Source: Gammaproteobacteria bacterium (GTDB taxonomy: Bacteria; Pseudomonadota; Gammaproteobacteria; SZUA-229). Taken from it: a stretch of 38,948 nucleotides of DNA. The DNA is taken from NCBI GenBank assembly GCA_029881275.1, contig JAOUMX010000001.1, positions 1 to 38,948 of the forward strand, read 5' to 3'. The notes beneath the pieces are model-generated. The model did not search any database and had not been told where the DNA came from. It was given only the letters and a program-made list of their open reading frames with translations. Of the stretch, positions 6,310 through 13,683 are shown piece by piece. The position numbers and the translations under genes were made by a program. Numbering within the stretch: the first letter of the stretch is position 1; each line of letters begins with the position of its first letter.

Positions 6310-7092
6310 GTGCTTTCTCTGATTAAATCAATACGTGAAGACATCAAGAGTATCTTTGATCGTGATCCGGCTGCTCGAACAACATTTGAGGTCATTACAA
6401 CTTATCCGGGTCTTCATGCCGTTGTTTTTCATCGTATAAGTCATATTCTGTGGAAGGCTAATCTAAAGTGGCTTGCGCGCGTCATGTCAAATATTGTTCG
6501 CTGGTATACGGGTATTGAAATTCATCCAGGTGCCCAGATAGGCCGTCGTTTTTTTATTGATCATGGAACCGGTGTGGTTATCGGTGAAACGGCTGAAATT
6601 GGTGATGATTGCACCTTATATCATGGTGTAACACTGGGAGGAACAAGCTGGGAAAAGGGTAAACGCCATCCCACATTAATGAATAATGTCATTGTCGGTG
6701 CCGGTGCAAAGGTGCTGGGGCCGATAGTGATAGGGGAAAATGCGAAAATTGGCTCCAATGCCGTTGTGACCAAGGATGTCCCAAGTGAAGCAACCGTGGT
6801 TGGTGTGCCAGGGCGCGTTGTTGAGCATAAGAAAGACGAAAAACATCAGCAAAGAGCTGCTACAGCGGAAAAAATGGGGTTCAGTGCCTATGGTGCTACT
6901 CAGGATGCCCCTGACCCGGTGGCTACGGCCATTAATTGTATGCTTGACCATATTCATCTGATGGATGCAAAAATGGAAACCATGTGTGCTGCGTTGAAAG
7001 CCCTGGGTTCAGAACTGGATGATCTTCATATGCCCGAACTTGGTAAGCTCGAAATTCAGACTGAAGGTGAACCGAAGCCTGAAAAAGAATGA
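6310..7092 (+). CDS. cysE: Serine O-acetyltransferase
   Basis: CysE transfers acetyl from acetyl-CoA to L-serine, the committed step of cysteine synthesis. The start is GTG, supported by AAGGA about 8 bases upstream. A short helical N-terminal part (1-65) leads into the left-handed hexapeptide-repeat domain (about 68-170). Catalytic residues D84-H85 (IDHGTG) and H105 (LYHGVTLGG) are present. The compact N-terminus resembles the shorter EpsC-type CysE more than the longer E. coli form. Residues about 175-260 form a charged C-terminal extension beyond the core. Its place directly before iscR is common in gammaproteobacteria and fits provision of cysteine for the desulfurases downstream. Confidence 0.94.
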
Positions 7093-7143
7093 TTCGAATT
7101 TTAAAGAAAATCAGTCATTTAGATTAATCGGATTTATTATATA

Positions 7144-7168
7144 ATACTTGACTAATTTACTCGGGATT
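7144..7168 (+). promoter_or_regulatory. IscR type 1 binding site over the isc promoter
   Basis: The 25 bases starting ATACTTGACTAATTTACTCG match the published type 1 IscR consensus (ATASYYGACTRWWWYAGTC followed by RRSTAT) at 22 of 25 positions by my count. The site contains the -35 element of the operon promoter, so holo-IscR binding would block RNA polymerase. This predicts the known autorepression circuit of the isc operon. Confidence 0.85.
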
Positions 7169-7177
7169 GATTATACT
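7148..7177 (+). promoter_or_regulatory. isc operon promoter
   Basis: TTGACT (7148-7153) and TATACT (7172-7177) are 18 bases apart, close to the sigma-70 consensus. Transcription would start near 7184, about 22 bases before the iscR ATG. The -35 lies inside the IscR box. Confidence 0.8.
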
Positions 7178-7205
7178 GCCACCTGATTAGTTAGAGAGAT
7201 CGGGT

Positions 7206-7685
7206 ATGAGACTTACATCTAAAGGGCGTTATGCAGTTACAGCCGTACTGGATTTATCCTTTCATCAAAATGAAGGTCCAGTATCATTAGCAGATATTTC
7301 TGCGCGTCAGGAAATTTCACTTTCTTATCTGGAGCAGTTGTTTGCTCGATTAAGGCGTAATAAGGTGGTTAACAGTACCCGAGGCCCAGGTGGTGGTTAC
7401 AAGTTAAGTCGTGATCCGGCTGACATCAGCATGGCAGAAATCATACTGGCAGTTGATGAAACTTATGATGCAACAGCCTGTGGCAGTAGCAGTAAACCCT
7501 GTTCAGGTAATTATCAGTGTTTAACGCATGATTTGTGGCAGGAACTGAGTCAGGAAATTCATACTTTTCTGAAAGAGATAACACTTGCTGAAATGATGTC
7601 GAAAAGAACCGTCAGAGAAGTGGCTGATCGACAGGATCGTGTCGTTCAGACACATGAGCTGAAGAAAGTGGTATCAGTTGGATAG
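7206..7685 (+). CDS. iscR: Iron-sulfur cluster regulator IscR
   Basis: IscR is an Rrf2-family repressor that senses cluster supply through its own [2Fe-2S] cluster. The 159-residue protein starts with the Rrf2 winged helix (MRLTSKGRYAVTAVLDL, recognition region SLSYLEQLFARLRRNKVV, wing GPGGGYKL). Cluster ligands are C92, C99, C105 and H108. The first interval is one residue longer than in E. coli IscR (C92, C98, C104, H107), but the pattern is otherwise intact. It is the first gene of the isc operon and its promoter carries an IscR box. Its TAG stop overlaps a GTG upstream of the next gene's preferred ATG. Confidence 0.97.
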   Translation: MRLTSKGRYAVTAVLDLSFHQNEGPVSLADISARQEISLSYLEQLFARLRRNKVVNSTRGPGGGYKLSRDPADISMAEIILAVDETYDATACGSSSKPCSGNYQCLTHDLWQELSQEIHTFLKEITLAEMMSKRTVREVADRQDRVVQTHELKKVVSVG

Positions 7686-7690
7686 TGGTA

Positions 7691-8833
7691 ATGTCTGTTT
7701 ATCTTGATAATAATTCTACAACTGCATTAGATCCTCAGGTTCTGGATGCAATGTTGCCTTATTTCAAGGATATTCATGGAAACCCATCCAGTGTGCATCG
7801 TTACGGACGTTTAACACGTAATGCGCTGGAACAGGCCAGGGATCAGGTTGCCCGGTTAGCAGGTGCTCGAAACGAGCAGGTGATTTTTACTTCTGGCGGT
7901 ACTGAGGCTAATAACCTGGCTATTTTAGGCGCGTTATCACACAAGGCACCCGCACACCTTGCTGTTAGTTCAATTGAGCACGCATCGATCATTGAGCCTG
8001 CAAAGTCATTGTTTAAAAAAGGCTGGAAGCTGGATTTAGTCAACGTCGATTCCGGATGTTATATATTAGCTGACAATCTTAAGTCTGTTATTTCAGAGGA
8101 TACCCGTCTGGTTTCAGTAATGATGGCTAATAATGAAACAGGTGTAGTGCAGGATATTCAAAGTTTGAAACAGGGTATTCAGTCTGATCAAATATTATTT
8201 CATTCTGATGCCAGTCAGGTTGCAGGAAAGCTGCCATTAAATTTCAATGAAATAAATATAGATATGATGACCCTGTCTTCACATAAAATATATGGTCCTC
8301 AGGGAGCGGGAGCTTTAATAGCCAATCGTTCCATTGAGTTAGAACCGGTATTGTATGGTGGTGGACAGGAACGTGGTATCAGAAACGGAACTGAAAATAT
8401 TGCAGCCATTGTTGGTTTTGGTGCGGCTGCCGAATTAGCGATTAAACAGCTCGAAGAAACCCAAAAGCATCTCAGGTCATTGAGAGACCAGCTAGAAAGA
8501 GAACTGGCTGCTATGCAGAACATTACTTTGTTTGCAGCTGAATCAGACCGCTTGCCGAATACATTACAGTTTGCTGTGAATGATTTTGATGGAGAGGCAT
8601 TGCTTATGCTGCTTGATAAAAAAGGTATTGCTGTTTCAAGTGGCTCTGCCTGTCAGAGCAGTGCTGGTGCACCCAGTCATGTTTTATTGGCTATGGGTGT
8701 GAAGCCTGAGCTTGCAAAACATGCCATACGAGTGAGTTTTGGCAGAAATAATATAGCTAAAGATGTACAGATTTTAATAGAAGCATTGAAAGATATTACT
8801 TTGATCCAACATAAATCTATGTGTGTTGGGTAA
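7691..8833 (+). CDS. Cysteine desulfurase, second (NifS/IscS-like) copy
   Basis: A PLP enzyme of the class V aminotransferase fold that takes sulfur from L-cysteine as a persulfide. With the ATG at 7691 it has 380 residues; a GTG at 7685 overlapping the iscR stop would add two. Seen are YLDNNSTT at the N-terminus, TSGGTEANN, H97 (SIEHASI), D173 (HSDASQ), the PLP lysine K199 (SSHKIYGP) and the catalytic cysteine C321 in SSGSACQSS. It clearly differs from the canonical IscS encoded 31 bases downstream: it is shorter, has QSSAGAPSH where IscS has TSSSLEPSY, and lacks the C-terminal extension that helps bind IscU. It may serve another sulfur acceptor, such as a tRNA thiolation or molybdenum cofactor pathway, but that is inference. 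Confidence 0.92.
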   Translation: MSVYLDNNSTTALDPQVLDAMLPYFKDIHGNPSSVHRYGRLTRNALEQARDQVARLAGARNEQVIFTSGGTEANNLAILGALSHKAPAHLAVSSIEHASIIEPAKSLFKKGWKLDLVNVDSGCYILADNLKSVISEDTRLVSVMMANNETGVVQDIQSLKQGIQSDQILFHSDASQVAGKLPLNFNEINIDMMTLSSHKIYGPQGAGALIANRSIELEPVLYGGGQERGIRNGTENIAAIVGFGAAAELAIKQLEETQKHLRSLRDQLERELAAMQNITLFAAESDRLPNTLQFAVNDFDGEALLMLLDKKGIAVSSGSACQSSAGAPSHVLLAMGVKPELAKHAIRVSFGRNNIAKDVQILIEALKDITLIQHKSMCVG

Positions 8834-8864: not shown

Positions 8865-10088
8865 GTGAGCAACTTGAAATTACCAATTTATTTTGATTAT
8901 TCAGCAACTACACCTGTTGATGAACGTGTAGCAGAAGCAATGATTAAGTGCATGACATTTGATGGTAACTTTGGTAATCCTGCTTCTCGTAGCCATGCCT
9001 TTGGCTGGAACTCTGAGGAAGCGGTTGAAGAAGCTCGTGGTCACGTCGCGGCTTTGATTAATGCAGATCCAAGAGAAATTGTCTGGACATCAGGTGCCAC
9101 AGAATCAAATAACCTGGCAATAAAAGGTGTCGCACATTTTTATAAAAAGAATGGCAAACATATCATTACCAGTAAAACGGAACATAAAGCGGTTCTTGAT
9201 ACCTGTCGTCAGCTTGAGCGTGAAGGTTATGATGTTACTTATCTTGATCCGGAGCCAAATGGCCTGATTGATCTCAAGAAGCTGGCTGATGCAATGCGTG
9301 ATGACACTATTCTAGTTAGCATTATGCATGTAAATAATGAAATAGGTGTCATTCAGGATATTGCTGCCATCGGTGAAATGTGTCGTGAGCGTAAAATAAT
9401 ATTTCATGTGGATGCTGCTCAAAGTGCTGGCAAAGTTGATATAGATCTTGAAAAGATGAAAGTTGACCTGATGAGTTTTTCAGCACATAAGATCTATGGT
9501 CCCAAAGGGATTGGTGCCTTGTATGTGCGCCGTAAACCTCGTATTCGTCTGGAAGCGCAGATGCATGGTGGCGGTCATGAACGGGGTATGCGTTCTGGTA
9601 CTCTGGCAACGCATCAGATTGTGGGTATGGGTGAGGCATTTCGGATTGCCAAACAGGAAATGCATGCCGAGAATGATCGTATTATGAAATTACGTAATCG
9701 TTTGTGGAATGGCTTTAAAGATATGGAAGAAGTCTACCTGAATGGTGACTTTGAGCATCGGGTAGCGGGTAATCTTAATGTCAGTTTTAATTTTGTTGAA
9801 GGTGAAAGCCTGATTATGGCGCTGAAGGATATTGCTGTATCCAGTGGCTCTGCATGCACATCTTCAAGCCTGGAGCCCAGCTATGTTTTAAGGGCACTAG
9901 GACGCAGCGATGAGCTGGCGCATAGTTCATTACGCTTTACTATTGGTCGTTATACCAAAGAAGAAGAGATCGATTACACCATTAATCTGGTTAAACAGGC
10001 GGTCTCCAAATTGCGCGATCTGTCACCTCTGTGGGATATGTTTAAAGAAGGGGTTGATCTGAATTCGGTAGAATGGGCCGCTCACTAA
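8865..10088 (+). CDS. iscS: Cysteine desulfurase IscS
   Basis: IscS is the main sulfur donor for cluster assembly on IscU and for tRNA thiolation. The 407-residue product begins at a [22 protein letters not shown] matches the N-terminus of E. coli IscS (404 residues), so the start is convincing. It carries [10 protein letters not shown]107 (TEHKAV), D183 ([10 protein letters not shown]), the PLP lysine K209 ([10 protein letters not shown]) and the mobile catalytic cysteine C331 in [21 protein letters not shown], the signature of group I desulfurases. The C-terminal [10 protein letters not shown] resembles the IscU- and frataxin-interacting tail. It is followed by iscU after an 84-base gap. 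Confidence 0.97.
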
Positions 10089-10172
10089 GCGACTGTTTGG
10101 AAAAGTTAAGGTAAAATGCGCAATATAGTCAGTTATGTTGCAGATTGTTTAATAAGAATTAGGAGAAAATCA

Positions 10173-10556
10173 ATGGCTTACAGTGAAAAAGTCATGGATC
10201 ATTACGAAAATCCACGCAATGTTGGTACCCTGGACAAGGACGCGGCTAATGTCGGAACAGGTATGGTGGGTGCGCCAGCCTGTGGTGACGTTATGCGGTT
10301 ACAGATTCAGGTGAGTGATGACGGCATTATTGAGAATGCCGTATTTAAAACTTATGGCTGTGGTTCGGCGATTGCGTCCAGTTCACTGGTAACAGAATGG
10401 ATGAAAGGCAAAACCCTGGAAGAGGCTAAAAAAATCAAGAATCTGGACATTGCTGAAGAACTGGCTTTGCCACCTGTAAAGGTTCACTGTTCAGTACTGG
10501 CTGAAGATGCAATCAGTGCTGCAGTAGAAGATTATTTGAAAAAACGGGCAGGTTAA
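10173..10556 (+). CDS. iscU: Iron-sulfur cluster scaffold IscU
   Basis: IscU is the scaffold on which [2Fe-2S] clusters are built. The frame is open from an ATG at 10116, but the ATG at 10173 is right: AGGAG lies 7 bases upstream, and the product [18 protein letters not shown] is 127 residues, close to the 128 of E. coli. The ligands C37, C63 and C106 are present, with D39 and H105. LPPVKVHCS (99-107) contains the segment recognised by the chaperone HscA. The 84 bases between iscS and this start contain nothing else evident. It is translated with iscA (2-base gap). Confidence 0.97.
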
Positions 10557-10558
10557 TT

Positions 10559-10885
10559 ATGGCTTTAACGATTACTCAGTCAGCAGCAGAACGTGTAAAA
10601 GCATACCTTGATAATCGTGGTAAAGGTATCGGCGTGCGACTGGGTGTTAAGACATCCGGCTGTTCAGGTATGGCATACGTTATTGAATTTGTCGATGAAG
10701 TTAACGACGCTGAAGACGTGCTGTTTGAAGATAATGGCGTGACCATTGTTGTTGATAAAAAGAGTCTTGTTTATATTGATGGCACTGCTATTGATTATGG
10801 TAAAGAAGGCTTGAATGAGGGTTTTAAATTTACCAATCCTAATGAGTCAGATCGTTGTGGATGTGGTGAAAGCTTTACTATCTAA
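10559..10885 (+). CDS. iscA: Iron-sulfur carrier protein IscA
   Basis: An A-type carrier that delivers iron or clusters to apo-targets. The 108-residue length is typical. The three conserved cysteines are C35 (TSGCSGMAY), C100 and C102 (RCGCGESF). The Asn-rich [16 protein letters not shown] end is typical of IscA rather than ErpA or SufA, and the position between iscU and hscB settles the name. It starts two bases after the iscU stop, so translation is probably coupled. Confidence 0.96.
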
Positions 10886-10893
10886 GAATAGTC

Positions 10894-11439
10894 ATGTCAG
10901 TCGATCTGTTTAACAAAAGTTATTTTGATATTTTTAATGTGCCACTTTCATATGATATTGATCTGAATAAAGTCGGTGAAATATATCTGAAATTGCAGAA
11001 AAGCGTACACCCTGATCGTTATGCTAATTCTGGTGATCAGGAAAAACGTATTGCAATGCAACAAACGTCATTAATCAATCAGGCCTTTTACACATTAAAG
11101 GATCCGGTCAGCAGAGCGCAATATATGCTTAAGCTCAAGGGTCTTGATATGGATTCTGAAACAGATACGACAATGGATGCTGAGTTTTTGATGGAGCAAA
11201 TGGAGTTTCGTGAGTCCATTATGGAAGTTCAGGATAAAAGTGATCCATTATCAGAGCTGGATTCTATGCTCGCTGTACTGGGTAAAAAGATGGATGGTTT
11301 GAGTAAGGATTTTACTAATTTATTTGTAAATGCTTCCTATGATGCAGCTCGAGAAGCAGTGAGAAAAATGCAATTCATAATCAAGGCTAAAAAAGAAGTC
11401 AATGAATTATCTGAAAAATTAGAAGATGAGTTAATGTAG
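10894..11439 (+). CDS. hscB: Fe-S assembly J-domain co-chaperone HscB
   Basis: HscB brings IscU to HscA and stimulates its ATPase. The protein has 181 residues; the family is about 170. A J domain occupies about 1-75 with HPD at 39-41 (SVHPDRYAN). A C-terminal three-helix region (about 90-175) containing [11 protein letters not shown], typical of the IscU-binding domain, follows. It lies 8 bases after iscA and 7 bases before hscA. Confidence 0.95.
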
Positions 11440-11446
11440 TTTAGTT

Positions 11447-13345
11447 ATGGCCTTACTTCAAATTGCAGAACCCGGACAATCAAGTGCGCCGCATCAAAGA
11501 CGTTTTGCTGTGGGTATAGATCTGGGTACAACGAATTCGCTTGTGGCTACTGTCCGAAGCGGTGTCGCAGAAACATTGCCCGATGCGTCTGGTAATCATC
11601 TTCTGCCTTCCGTGGTGCGTTATCAGCCTGATCATGATCCGGTAGTTGGTATAGAAGCAAAATCCAGTTCAGTTGATGATCCATTAAATACCATCGTGTC
11701 GATTAAGCGCTTAATGGGGCGTGGTATTGAAGACCTTAAATCACTGGGTAATCGTCTGCCTTACAAATTTGCAGAAACCGAATCGTCAGTACCCAGAATT
11801 GCTACATCAGCAGGTCATGTTAGTGCTGTCGAAGTTTCCGCTGAAATTTTAAAATCGTTAAAAGACAGAAGTGAACAAACATTAGGTGATGAACTGGTGG
11901 GTGCTGTGATAACTGTACCTGCCTATTTTGATGATGCGCAACGTCAGGCAACAAAAGATGCTGCCAGACTGGCCAACATTAATGTTCTGCGCTTATTGAA
12001 TGAACCGACTGCAGCTGCGGTTGCTTATGGCCTTGATAGTGGCCAGGAAGGTGTTATTGCCGTTTATGATCTTGGTGGTGGTACCTTTGATATTTCTATT
12101 CTGCGTTTAAATAAAGGTGTCTTTGAAGTTTTGTCGACGGGTGGCGATAGTGCACTGGGTGGTGATGACTTTGATCATGCTATTGCAGAATGGATTATTC
12201 CACAGATTGGTTTGAATAAAACTGAATTAGAACCTTCACAAGCACGTCTTTTGTTGCGTGAAGCCTGTAAGGCAAAAGAAGCACTGGCTGAGAATGAGCA
12301 GGTTGAGTTAAATATTGAATTAAATGAAAATCATCGATGGTTTGGTTTATTAACACGAGATCAGTTTCAGCAACTGGTGGATCCATTGATTAAAAAAACA
12401 CTTCTTGCCTGCCGCCGTGCAATTCGTGACGCGGGTGTTGATCAGGCTGATATTGTTGATGTGGTTATGGTTGGTGGTTCAACACGTACGCTTAGAGTAA
12501 GAGAGCTTGTTGGTGACTTTTTTAAACAGCAGCCTTTGGTCAGTATCGATCCAGATAAAGTCGTTGCCATAGGTGCTGCTATTCAGGCAAATTCACTGGC
12601 CGGAAATGACCCGGACGGTGAAATGTTATTACTGGATGTAATACCGCTTTCGCTTGGTATTGAAATAATGGGTGGTTTGACCGAGAAGATTATCCATAGA
12701 AATACACCTATACCTGTTTCCCGTGCGCAGGAGTTTACCACTTATAAAGATGGTCAAACTGCAATGGCCGTGCATGTGGTTCAGGGTGAGCGTGAACTGA
12801 TATCAGATTGTCGATCCCTTGCCAGATTCGAGTTACGTGGCTTTCCTCCTCAGGTGGCGGGAAGTGCGCGTATTCGTGTTACTTTTCAGGTTGATGCCGA
12901 TGGTTTGCTGAGTGTTTCTGCCAGGGAGGAAACGTCTGGCGTCGAAGCTCATGTTGAAGTTAAGCCCTCATATGGTTTAAATGATGCTGAAATTGAGAAG
13001 ATGCTGCGTGATTCGATGGATTATGCAAAAGATGATATGTTGGCGCGTAGCTTGCGCGAGCAACAGGTAGAAGCAGACCGTGTTATCGTCGCCCTTGACG
13101 CGGCTATGGCAGAAGATGCTGATGAGATGTTAGAGGCTGATGAGCGAGATGCTATATTAAAAGCCCGTGATATTCTGCTGCAGACAAAACAGACGTCAAA
13201 CGATGTGCAGGAAATTAAGCAGGCAGTTCAGGCTGTTGAACGTGCCAGTGCCAGTTATGTGGCTAAACGTATGAATGCCAGTGTACAGAAGACGATGGCA
13301 GGCCATAAAGTCGAAGAATTTACAGTTGAGGATGAGAATAAATAA
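11447..13345 (+). CDS. hscA: Fe-S assembly Hsp70 chaperone HscA
   Basis: HscA is the specialised Hsp70 that uses ATP to release the cluster from IscU. The 632-residue protein is slightly longer than E. coli HscA (616). The nucleotide-binding domain starts at about residue 20 with [13 protein letters not shown] and carries [29 protein letters not shown] and [10 protein letters not shown]. The substrate domain contains the [10 protein letters not shown] transition. The C-terminus lacks the EEVD-like tail of DnaK. A 24-residue N-terminal extension precedes the ATPase domain. Its TAA overlaps the ATG of fdx by one base. Confidence 0.96.
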
Positions 13346-13683
13346 TGCCGCAGATTATCTTTCTGCCCCATGAAGAGTTATGTCCAGAAGGTATGGTCAT
13401 TGACGCTGAAAAGGGTGATACCATTTGTGATGCCGCGTTAAAGCATGGTATTGAAATTGAGCATGCCTGTGAAAAGTCCTGTGCCTGCACTACCTGTCAT
13501 GTCTATGTGCGTGAGGGCGGTGATTCCCTTAATGAAAACTCTGATGAAGAGGATGATTTACTGGATAAAGCATGGGGACTGGATCCGGATTCACGGCTCA
13601 GTTGCCAGGCAACGGTTGGTGATAAGGATCTTGTGATCGAAATTCCAAAATATACGATTAACATGGTATCTGAGAATCATTAG
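13345..13683 (+). CDS. fdx: [2Fe-2S] ferredoxin of the isc system
   Basis: This adrenodoxin-type ferredoxin supplies electrons during cluster assembly. The 112-residue protein has ligands C42, C48, C51 (EHACEKSCACTTC) and C87 (SRLSCQATVG), the same positions as E. coli Fdx, including the extra C46. The acidic NENSDEEDDLLDKAWGL helix is the usual partner-binding surface. It overlaps hscA by one base. Confidence 0.97.
   Translation: MPQIIFLPHEELCPEGMVIDAEKGDTICDAALKHGIEIEHACEKSCACTTCHVYVREGGDSLNENSDEEDDLLDKAWGLDPDSRLSCQATVGDKDLVIEIPKYTINMVSENH

Follow-up and report, generated by a model that had tools for sequence, protein, structure and literature searches.

In Escherichia coli, one cysteine desulfurase, IscS, feeds many sulfur acceptors. 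The window analyzed here, i.e., the whole stretch of 38,948 nucleotides from a gammaproteobacterial genome, carries an isc operon in which a second desulfurase gene, referred to as A, stands between iscR and iscS, and this raises the question of whether its product is a spare IscS, an additional donor for iron-sulfur (Fe-S) assembly, or the donor for some other acceptor.

All the genes from cysE to fdx lie on the + strand. The serine acetyltransferase gene cysE (6310–7092; TIGR01172, 261.9 bits, over the cut-off) precedes iscR in the window, as it does in many relatives, and iscR (7206–7685) scores just under the cut-off of its model (TIGR02010, 194.8 bits against 207.55; PRK10857, 194.9 of 275) and shows the Cys/Cys/Cys/His pattern which we take to be that of the IscR ligands. 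Gene A (7691–8833, 380 aa) begins with the ATG at 7691, 5 nt past the iscR stop codon (7683–7685), with the in-frame GTG at 7685 as a possible alternative start, and ends with the TAA at 8831–8833, leaving a gap of 31 nt to the GTG of iscS at 8865. It is followed by iscS (8865–10088; 783 and 762 bits, above both IscS cut-offs) and by iscU (10164–10556; TIGR01999, 223.4 bits), iscA (10559–10885; TIGR02011, 173.6 bits), hscB (10894–11439; TIGR00714, 114.3 bits), hscA (11447–13345; TIGR01991, 892.5 bits), and fdx (13345–13683; TIGR02007, 188.7 bits), all over their cut-offs. For iscU, the ATG at 10164 is the likely start, given that the listed ORF begins at 10116 but the family match only at residue 22. 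In A, the PLP lysine (K199) and the catalytic cysteine (C321) are encoded at 8285–8287 and 8651–8653, respectively, and are invariant in 21 aligned relatives; together with the reading frame and the domain scores, they confirm that a second desulfurase does lie between iscR and iscS, as the sequence-only reading of this DNA had stated.

The host genome, which is 100% complete in 231 contigs, gives no desulfurase match at E ≤ 1e-3 besides A and the adjoining IscS, no SufB match, and no SufS match at E ≤ 1e-100. The same genome has a second iscR-iscU pair (L188, G000:C147; iscR at 6938–7438, iscU at 7518–7952) with no desulfurase, an IscU that is 93% identical, and an IscR-box match of its own, and this pair stands just before a long gene that is aconitase-like, to judge from its sequence.

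Both Pfam (Aminotran_5, 286.8 bits) and NCBIfam, in which the NifS model TIGR03402 is the best match, place A among the group-I cysteine desulfurases, and the alignment and the trees agree. The protein does not reach the cut-off of any NCBIfam model matched, with 423 of 530.75 bits for NifS, 364 of 480 for DndA, 332.2 of 643.2 (TIGR02006) and 343.9 of 548 (NF010611) for the two IscS models, and, for group II, 181.2 of 475.1 for SufS (TIGR01979) and 108.3 of 493.6 for CsdA (TIGR03392), the nearest miss being PRK02948, with 285 of 304. According to the section "2. Classification and Distribution" of PMC8300815, group I is marked by a cysteine in an extended SSGSAC loop, and A combines membership of the aminotransferase class-V family with the PLP lysine and a cysteine in such an extended loop; it would act as a desulfurase carrying its persulfide on Cys321. 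An identity as the NifS of nitrogen fixation was rejected, given the score below the cut-off, the different position in the tree, where rhizobial NifS (L181) is not a member of the clade of A despite the best NCBIfam match, and neighbors that are isc rather than nif genes. It is also unlikely that A is the desulfurase of the SUF system, as SufS itself is present over its cut-off in 25/25 SUF-type genomes that have A and no iscS at the locus. The solved structures nearest in sequence are PDB 9wep, 9wer, 9wew, 9wf8, 9wfb, 9wfe, and 9wfy, all entries for a 406-residue "cysteine desulfurase"; the three that were aligned differ by a few residues, and the set may represent mutants of a single enzyme.

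With E. coli IscS and the IscS of the window, A shares the enzyme family, the PLP lysine, the catalytic cysteine, the length of the catalytic loop, and the operon. It differs in having lost W45, R223, R225, R340, Leu333 (E. coli numbering), and the C-terminal tail, whereas the adjoining IscS, which is 37% identical to A and has 407 aa, retains W45, E49, Arg220/223/225, Arg340, Leu333, and the tail. The sequence-only reading had described A as shorter, devoid of the IscU-binding tail, and different in its loop; this holds for the length, the tail, and the letters of the loop. The loop length is unchanged, CQSSAGAPS being as long as the loop of IscS. A nine-residue loop is found in 150 of 154 clade-A rows, and CQSSAGAPS was rejected as a special feature, being one of many spellings, mostly of equal length, within the clade.

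An arrangement of this kind might be a peculiarity of one genome, given the earlier claim that the usual operon has a single desulfurase at this position. For this lineage, that claim does not survive a survey of other genomes. Of 24 relatives belonging to its genus or family, 19 have a member of the clade; among the five others, completeness is 58–81% in G003, G011, and G019, 99% in G004, and 92% in G022. Directly after A comes iscS in all 12 of the 12 family loci, including five (L006, L007, L008, L009, and L010) in which the assembly breaks just downstream of A, within the first part of iscS; a second iscR-iscS start stands at another contig end in L189 (G013:C17), which suggests that a similar second iscS region splits the assemblies of this family.

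At the level of the class, 370 genomes that are at least 90% complete were sampled and loci were read in at least 87 genomes with a clade member; in the 87 loci counted, iscR lies upstream in 77, and the gene directly downstream is iscS in 53 and iscA in 26. The best 80 of 596 loci from named genomes include 39 that are clade members by identity, with iscS (27/39) or iscA (8/39) directly downstream, and at least two of these named loci hold the same genes as loci of the class sample; the carriers include Methylophilus, Methylotenera, Nitrosomonas, Nitrosospira, Sulfuricella, Accumulibacter, Methylobacter, Aromatoleum, Azoarcus, and others. Two culturable hosts, Methylophilus rhizosphaerae and Aromatoleum tolulyticum, are among those with iscS after A (L044 and L065). 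Outside the class the same order recurs: of 20 regions hand-picked from 120 genomes drawn across the phylum, 15 have iscS after A, most of them with cysE-iscR ahead, and in three of the 20, A stands ahead of SufB/D- and SufC-like genes. The genomes of other classes are probably for the most part Alphaproteobacteria, judging from this suf arrangement. The iscR-A-iscS order is old and common, and not a curiosity of one genome.

Several loci depart from this order. In one family (G259, G336, and G162), iscS-iscU are found at a second iscR locus (L185, L186, and L187), and A remains in iscR-A-iscA-hscB-hscA-fdx (L170, L173, and L172). In seven other loci (L029, L040, L138, L149, L160, L166, and L171), the gene after A encodes a divergent IscS-like protein, which in most cases lacks W45 and the tail, and next come iscA and, where the stretch suffices, rlmN, with no hscBA match; SufB is present in the tested genomes, which cover six of the seven (all but L040). 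In a Nitrosomonas MAG (L062, 5171–8219) and in G308 (L167, 1286–4369), A has moved out of the isc locus and stands ahead of a sugar-nucleotidyltransferase-like gene and a phosphoglycerate-mutase gene; the neighbors of these two displaced copies offer no functional hint. Group-I matches also occur in open frames of 1140–1197 codons (G156:C9:42565, G261:C56:36168, G164:C60:25207, and G384:C6:224363), each of which may be a fusion or merely a long open frame.

The placement of A under the IscR box, another claim of the sequence-only reading, is borne out at the level of sequence. The IscR type-1 box is matched by ATACTTGACTAATTTACTCGGGATT on the + strand at 7144–7168, 62 nt before iscR and thus ahead of A; this stretch agrees at 22 of 25 positions with the consensus that we take to be that of the box, the best of 50 shuffles reaching 19 and the E. 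coli control 24 of 25. In the same test, 100 of 154 loci with iscR (a few of them counted twice) scored at least 20, L209 being the only one from another class to do so. A may be regulated by IscR.

The residues that A has lost and kept were counted in 88 IscS proteins and in 152 different A proteins (154 rows), of which the class sample and the named loci supplied 131 and other classes 21. Membership in A was decided by identity, and the trees served to check representatives. Both Lys206 and Cys328 (E. coli IscS numbering) are present in 152/152 A. On the other hand, W45 is found in 0/152 A, where 143 have arginine, and in 88/88 IscS; in E. coli IscS, according to the available part of PMC2854127, this residue contacts TusA and ThiI, and its replacement abolished TusA binding and reduced both mnm5s2U and s4U. 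Arg223, of the CyaY/IscX patch, is absent from 151/152 A, and Leu333 is retained in 4/152 A against 87/88 IscS. When Leu333 was replaced in E. coli, the IscU-dependent s2C fell to 20%, and the levels of mnm5s2U and s4U were normal (PMC2854127, as given in its Table 3). Among the other group-I proteins (54 rows, 53 of them distinct), Leu333 is present in 21 of 27 with iscU nearby and in 10 of 27 without, a difference with a Fisher p of 0.005 when kinship is ignored.

The tail was judged by its motif, SP[LM][WY], which occurs in 0/152 A and 86/88 IscS, because the number of residues past E. coli position 392 is an alignment-dependent measure that was not reproduced in a second alignment. From position 376 on, there are 3–23 residues in the beta- and gammaproteobacterial A and 4–27 in those of other classes, compared with 29–30 in 72 beta- and gammaproteobacterial IscS and 13–30 in 16 IscS of other classes. 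Arginine at position 45 and short tails are both common in other group-I enzymes, many of them encoded beside iscU, so these two features alone do not exclude IscU, and the missing tail was not accepted as stand-alone proof against IscU binding. Taken with the loss of Leu333 and the retention of A in SUF genomes that have no IscU over the cut-off, the missing IscU tail nevertheless lends good support to the earlier suggestion of an acceptor other than IscU. On the alternative given in the same reading, a backup under stress, the sequences are neutral.

The Fe-S systems that accompany A bear on the same point, and 80 hand-picked genomes were scored for IscU, SufB, and the TusA family. Where A is present with no iscS at the locus (25 genomes), SufB and SufS over the cut-off were each found in 25/25, and IscU over the cut-off in one (G145). 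Where A is accompanied by iscS (13 genomes), IscU was found in 13/13 and SufB in one (G095). Three genomes in which A separates iscR from iscA-hscBA-fdx have IscU (3/3), no SufB (0/3), and iscS-iscU at a second iscR locus, and nine in which A has an IscS-like neighbor have SufB (9/9), SufS over the cut-off (8/9), and no IscU over the cut-off (0/9). With up to five candidates scored, 20 of the 25 genomes without iscS at the locus gave no group-I match at E ≤ 1e-50 other than A. A accompanies ISC as well as SUF, and each of the two has a desulfurase of its own.

It may still be the case that Fe-S assembly itself, on IscU, IscA, or a SUF scaffold, draws additional sulfur from A, with co-regulation by IscR matching the supply to the demand for clusters. 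That A lies within the isc locus and downstream of an IscR-box match fits this role, as does the presence of iscA directly after A, where iscS is missing, in 26 of the 87 class-sample loci counted, with sufB following that iscA in G378 and G228, and the short tail is shared with group-I enzymes encoded beside iscU in other phyla. Against an auxiliary donor stand the fact that each system keeps its own desulfurase (SufS in 25/25 genomes; iscS after A in 53 of the 87 loci counted), the absence of Leu333 from 148/152 A, and the three genomes in which iscS-iscU are at a second iscR locus and A stays with iscA-hscBA-fdx. This role appears unlikely, though not remote.

The reading that we favor, tentatively and at rather less than an even chance, is that A is an IscR-linked desulfurase for a scaffold-independent acceptor, most likely MnmA, supplied directly and without TusA. 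Encoded behind the IscR box, A would make a persulfide on Cys321 from cysteine, as IscS does; it would not work on the IscU scaffold and would serve an acceptor that is independent of the Fe-S system used by the cell, passing the sulfur directly to the tRNA 2-thiouridylase MnmA with no need of TusA. A precedent exists in Bacillus subtilis, where YrvO and MnmA alone make s2U without Tus proteins, as reported in the available part of PMC5372745. The likeness lies in the proposed mode, a dedicated desulfurase acting directly on MnmA, and transfer by A is predicted by this analogy; the difference is that yrvO adjoins mnmA, whereas A does not. No MnmA match at E ≤ 1e-10 was found in any clade-A locus examined, in comparison with eight other group-I loci that have one, and the mnmA of the host genome lies ~75 kb from A on the same contig.

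The case for MnmA as the probable acceptor was built on 34 genomes with SUF and A but no regular IscS next door (the 25 without iscS at the locus and the nine with an IscS-like neighbor). MnmA is present over its cut-off in 33 of these (the exception, G152, is 95% complete), ThiI over its cut-off in one, and no TusA-family match was found in 16; with ThiI so rare (1/34), a role of A as its donor is unlikely. In one small and complete genome (G123; 1.4 Mb, 100% complete), A, SUF, and MnmA are present with no TusA, ThiS, or MoaD match and no ThiI or IscU over the cut-off, so that MnmA is the only tested acceptor left there; this genome and the YrvO precedent together make MnmA the first choice. 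MnmA itself does not need A, since it is present over its cut-off in 13/13 SUF genomes taken as lacking A, among them all four (G036, G039, G043, and G104) without any group-I match at E ≤ 1e-50. The absence of the TusA family is not clearly tied to A, being seen in 16/34 SUF genomes with A versus 4/18 without (Fisher p of 0.13), and overall in 16/50 versus 6/30 (p of 0.31).

The same genomes leave room for another possibility, namely that A feeds ThiS (for thiamine), MoaD (for Moco), or a rhodanese- or TusA-like carrier rather than MnmA. ThiS over the cut-off and MoaD-like matches were found in 33 and 27 of the 34 genomes, and in 34/35 and 28/35 of a slightly wider set, so that these acceptors are open nearly everywhere, and some TusA-family match occurs in 34/50 A-bearing genomes, with four in the host genome; the cut-off of the TusA model is strict, only 4 of 80 genomes exceeding it. 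In 16 of the 34 SUF-type genomes, i.e., in 16 of the 18 that have a TusA-family match, a TusA-like gene lies within ~1.5 kb of a frame of 350–600 codons that weakly matches the ThiI model, and this gene may serve the neighboring protein rather than MnmA. The host genome offers an example (L220, G000:C70), in which a 351-aa protein with weak ThiI and MnmA model matches (1345–2400) is overlapped by an 80-aa TusA-like gene (2388–2630); such a pair may represent a further thiolation system and is a candidate to accept the sulfur. Against these acceptors stand the genome that keeps A with no ThiS, MoaD, or TusA match (G123) and the loss from 152/152 A of W45, the TusA and ThiI contact described for E. 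coli IscS in the part of PMC2854127 that is available. A donor role for ThiS, MoaD, or such a carrier is, in our judgment, improbable, and tRNA thiolation through MnmA is the best supported of the readings weighed, with a claim that still falls short of even.

The phylogeny bears on whether A is a copy of iscS at all. In a tree of 60 proteins, evaluated by bootstrap and SH-aLRT, with a bootstrap that stopped short of being fully settled, 24 A proteins (14 from the class and 10 from other classes) form a clade with a support of 100/99, separate from the clade of 10 IscS, with a support of 99/97, and the clostridial proteins and rhizobial NifS fall outside both. Two quick trees (131 and 134 proteins, archaeal ones included) agree with this, and support is weak for the deeper branching order of A, IscS, and the other proteins. 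With these separate clades and an identity of 37%, a recent duplication of iscS was rejected, and the near-identical duplicates envisaged in the sequence-only reading are not what is found. That A is a redundant copy of iscS with no role of its own, as its frequent position directly beside iscS and the same chemistry motifs might suggest, is next to untenable and already contradicted by this phylogeny and by conservation, the active site being invariant across 152 proteins and A being the sole group-I match at E ≤ 1e-50 in 20/25 SUF-type genomes (up to five candidates scored).

Because the clade holds members from this class and from others, it predates the divergence of the classes that were sampled. 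Apart from L209 and the plasmid row L183, which has a long branch, the A rows of other classes group together in one quick tree and are not recovered as a single group in the 60-protein tree. Two plasmid desulfurases (L183, 5998–13116; L184, 3986–9107) lie beside DUF4007 genes, that of L183 also beside a PAPS-reductase-family gene, and these loci resemble those of DNA-phosphorothioation (dnd-type) systems.

In the literature searched, which mostly did not extend to subscription papers, no functional study of clade A was found, and the clade is not mentioned in the available parts of PMC9628965, PMC4440780, and PMC2682760; the arrangement proved to be standard in the clade, which the sequence-only reading had named, in combination with a known role, as a refuting result, and no known role was found. 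One described system comes close. As far as the available parts of PMC6956336 and PMC11475020 describe it, the alphaproteobacterial isc-suf operon holds two desulfurases, IscS and SufS, and is conserved in several families, and this "IscS" (Caulobacter CCNA_01941, Rhodobacter), which in Caulobacter is 34.9% identical to E. coli IscS (PMC11475020), is likewise a group-I desulfurase encoded after iscR, there ahead of sufBCD-sufS, whereas in the window A precedes a full isc operon. In three loci (L215, L216, and L218), none with an iscR match in the stretch read, the gene ahead of SufB/D- and SufC-like genes falls in clade A, with L215 and L216 also in the 60-protein tree. This suggests that the alphaproteobacterial isc-suf "IscS" is an A, on the tree evidence of these three proteins and not of the named ones. 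The broadest form of the proposal, that the whole clade is an unrecognized, dedicated s2U donor across several classes, direct to MnmA, independent of TusA, under IscR, and labeled "IscS" in alphaproteobacterial isc-suf operons, is doubtful.

Many genomes of the phylum have a second desulfurase behind iscR, with either ISC or SUF, which lacks contacts that E. coli IscS uses. If A has an acceptor of its own, the sulfur traffic of these bacteria would be split at the first enzyme, and both the annotation of A as "IscS" and the models in which all sulfur flows to IscS would be wrong for them. A is also a candidate answer to the question of what supplies MnmA where no TusA was found, and, if this is true, tRNA thiolation would follow the Fe-S and cysteine status of the cell through IscR.
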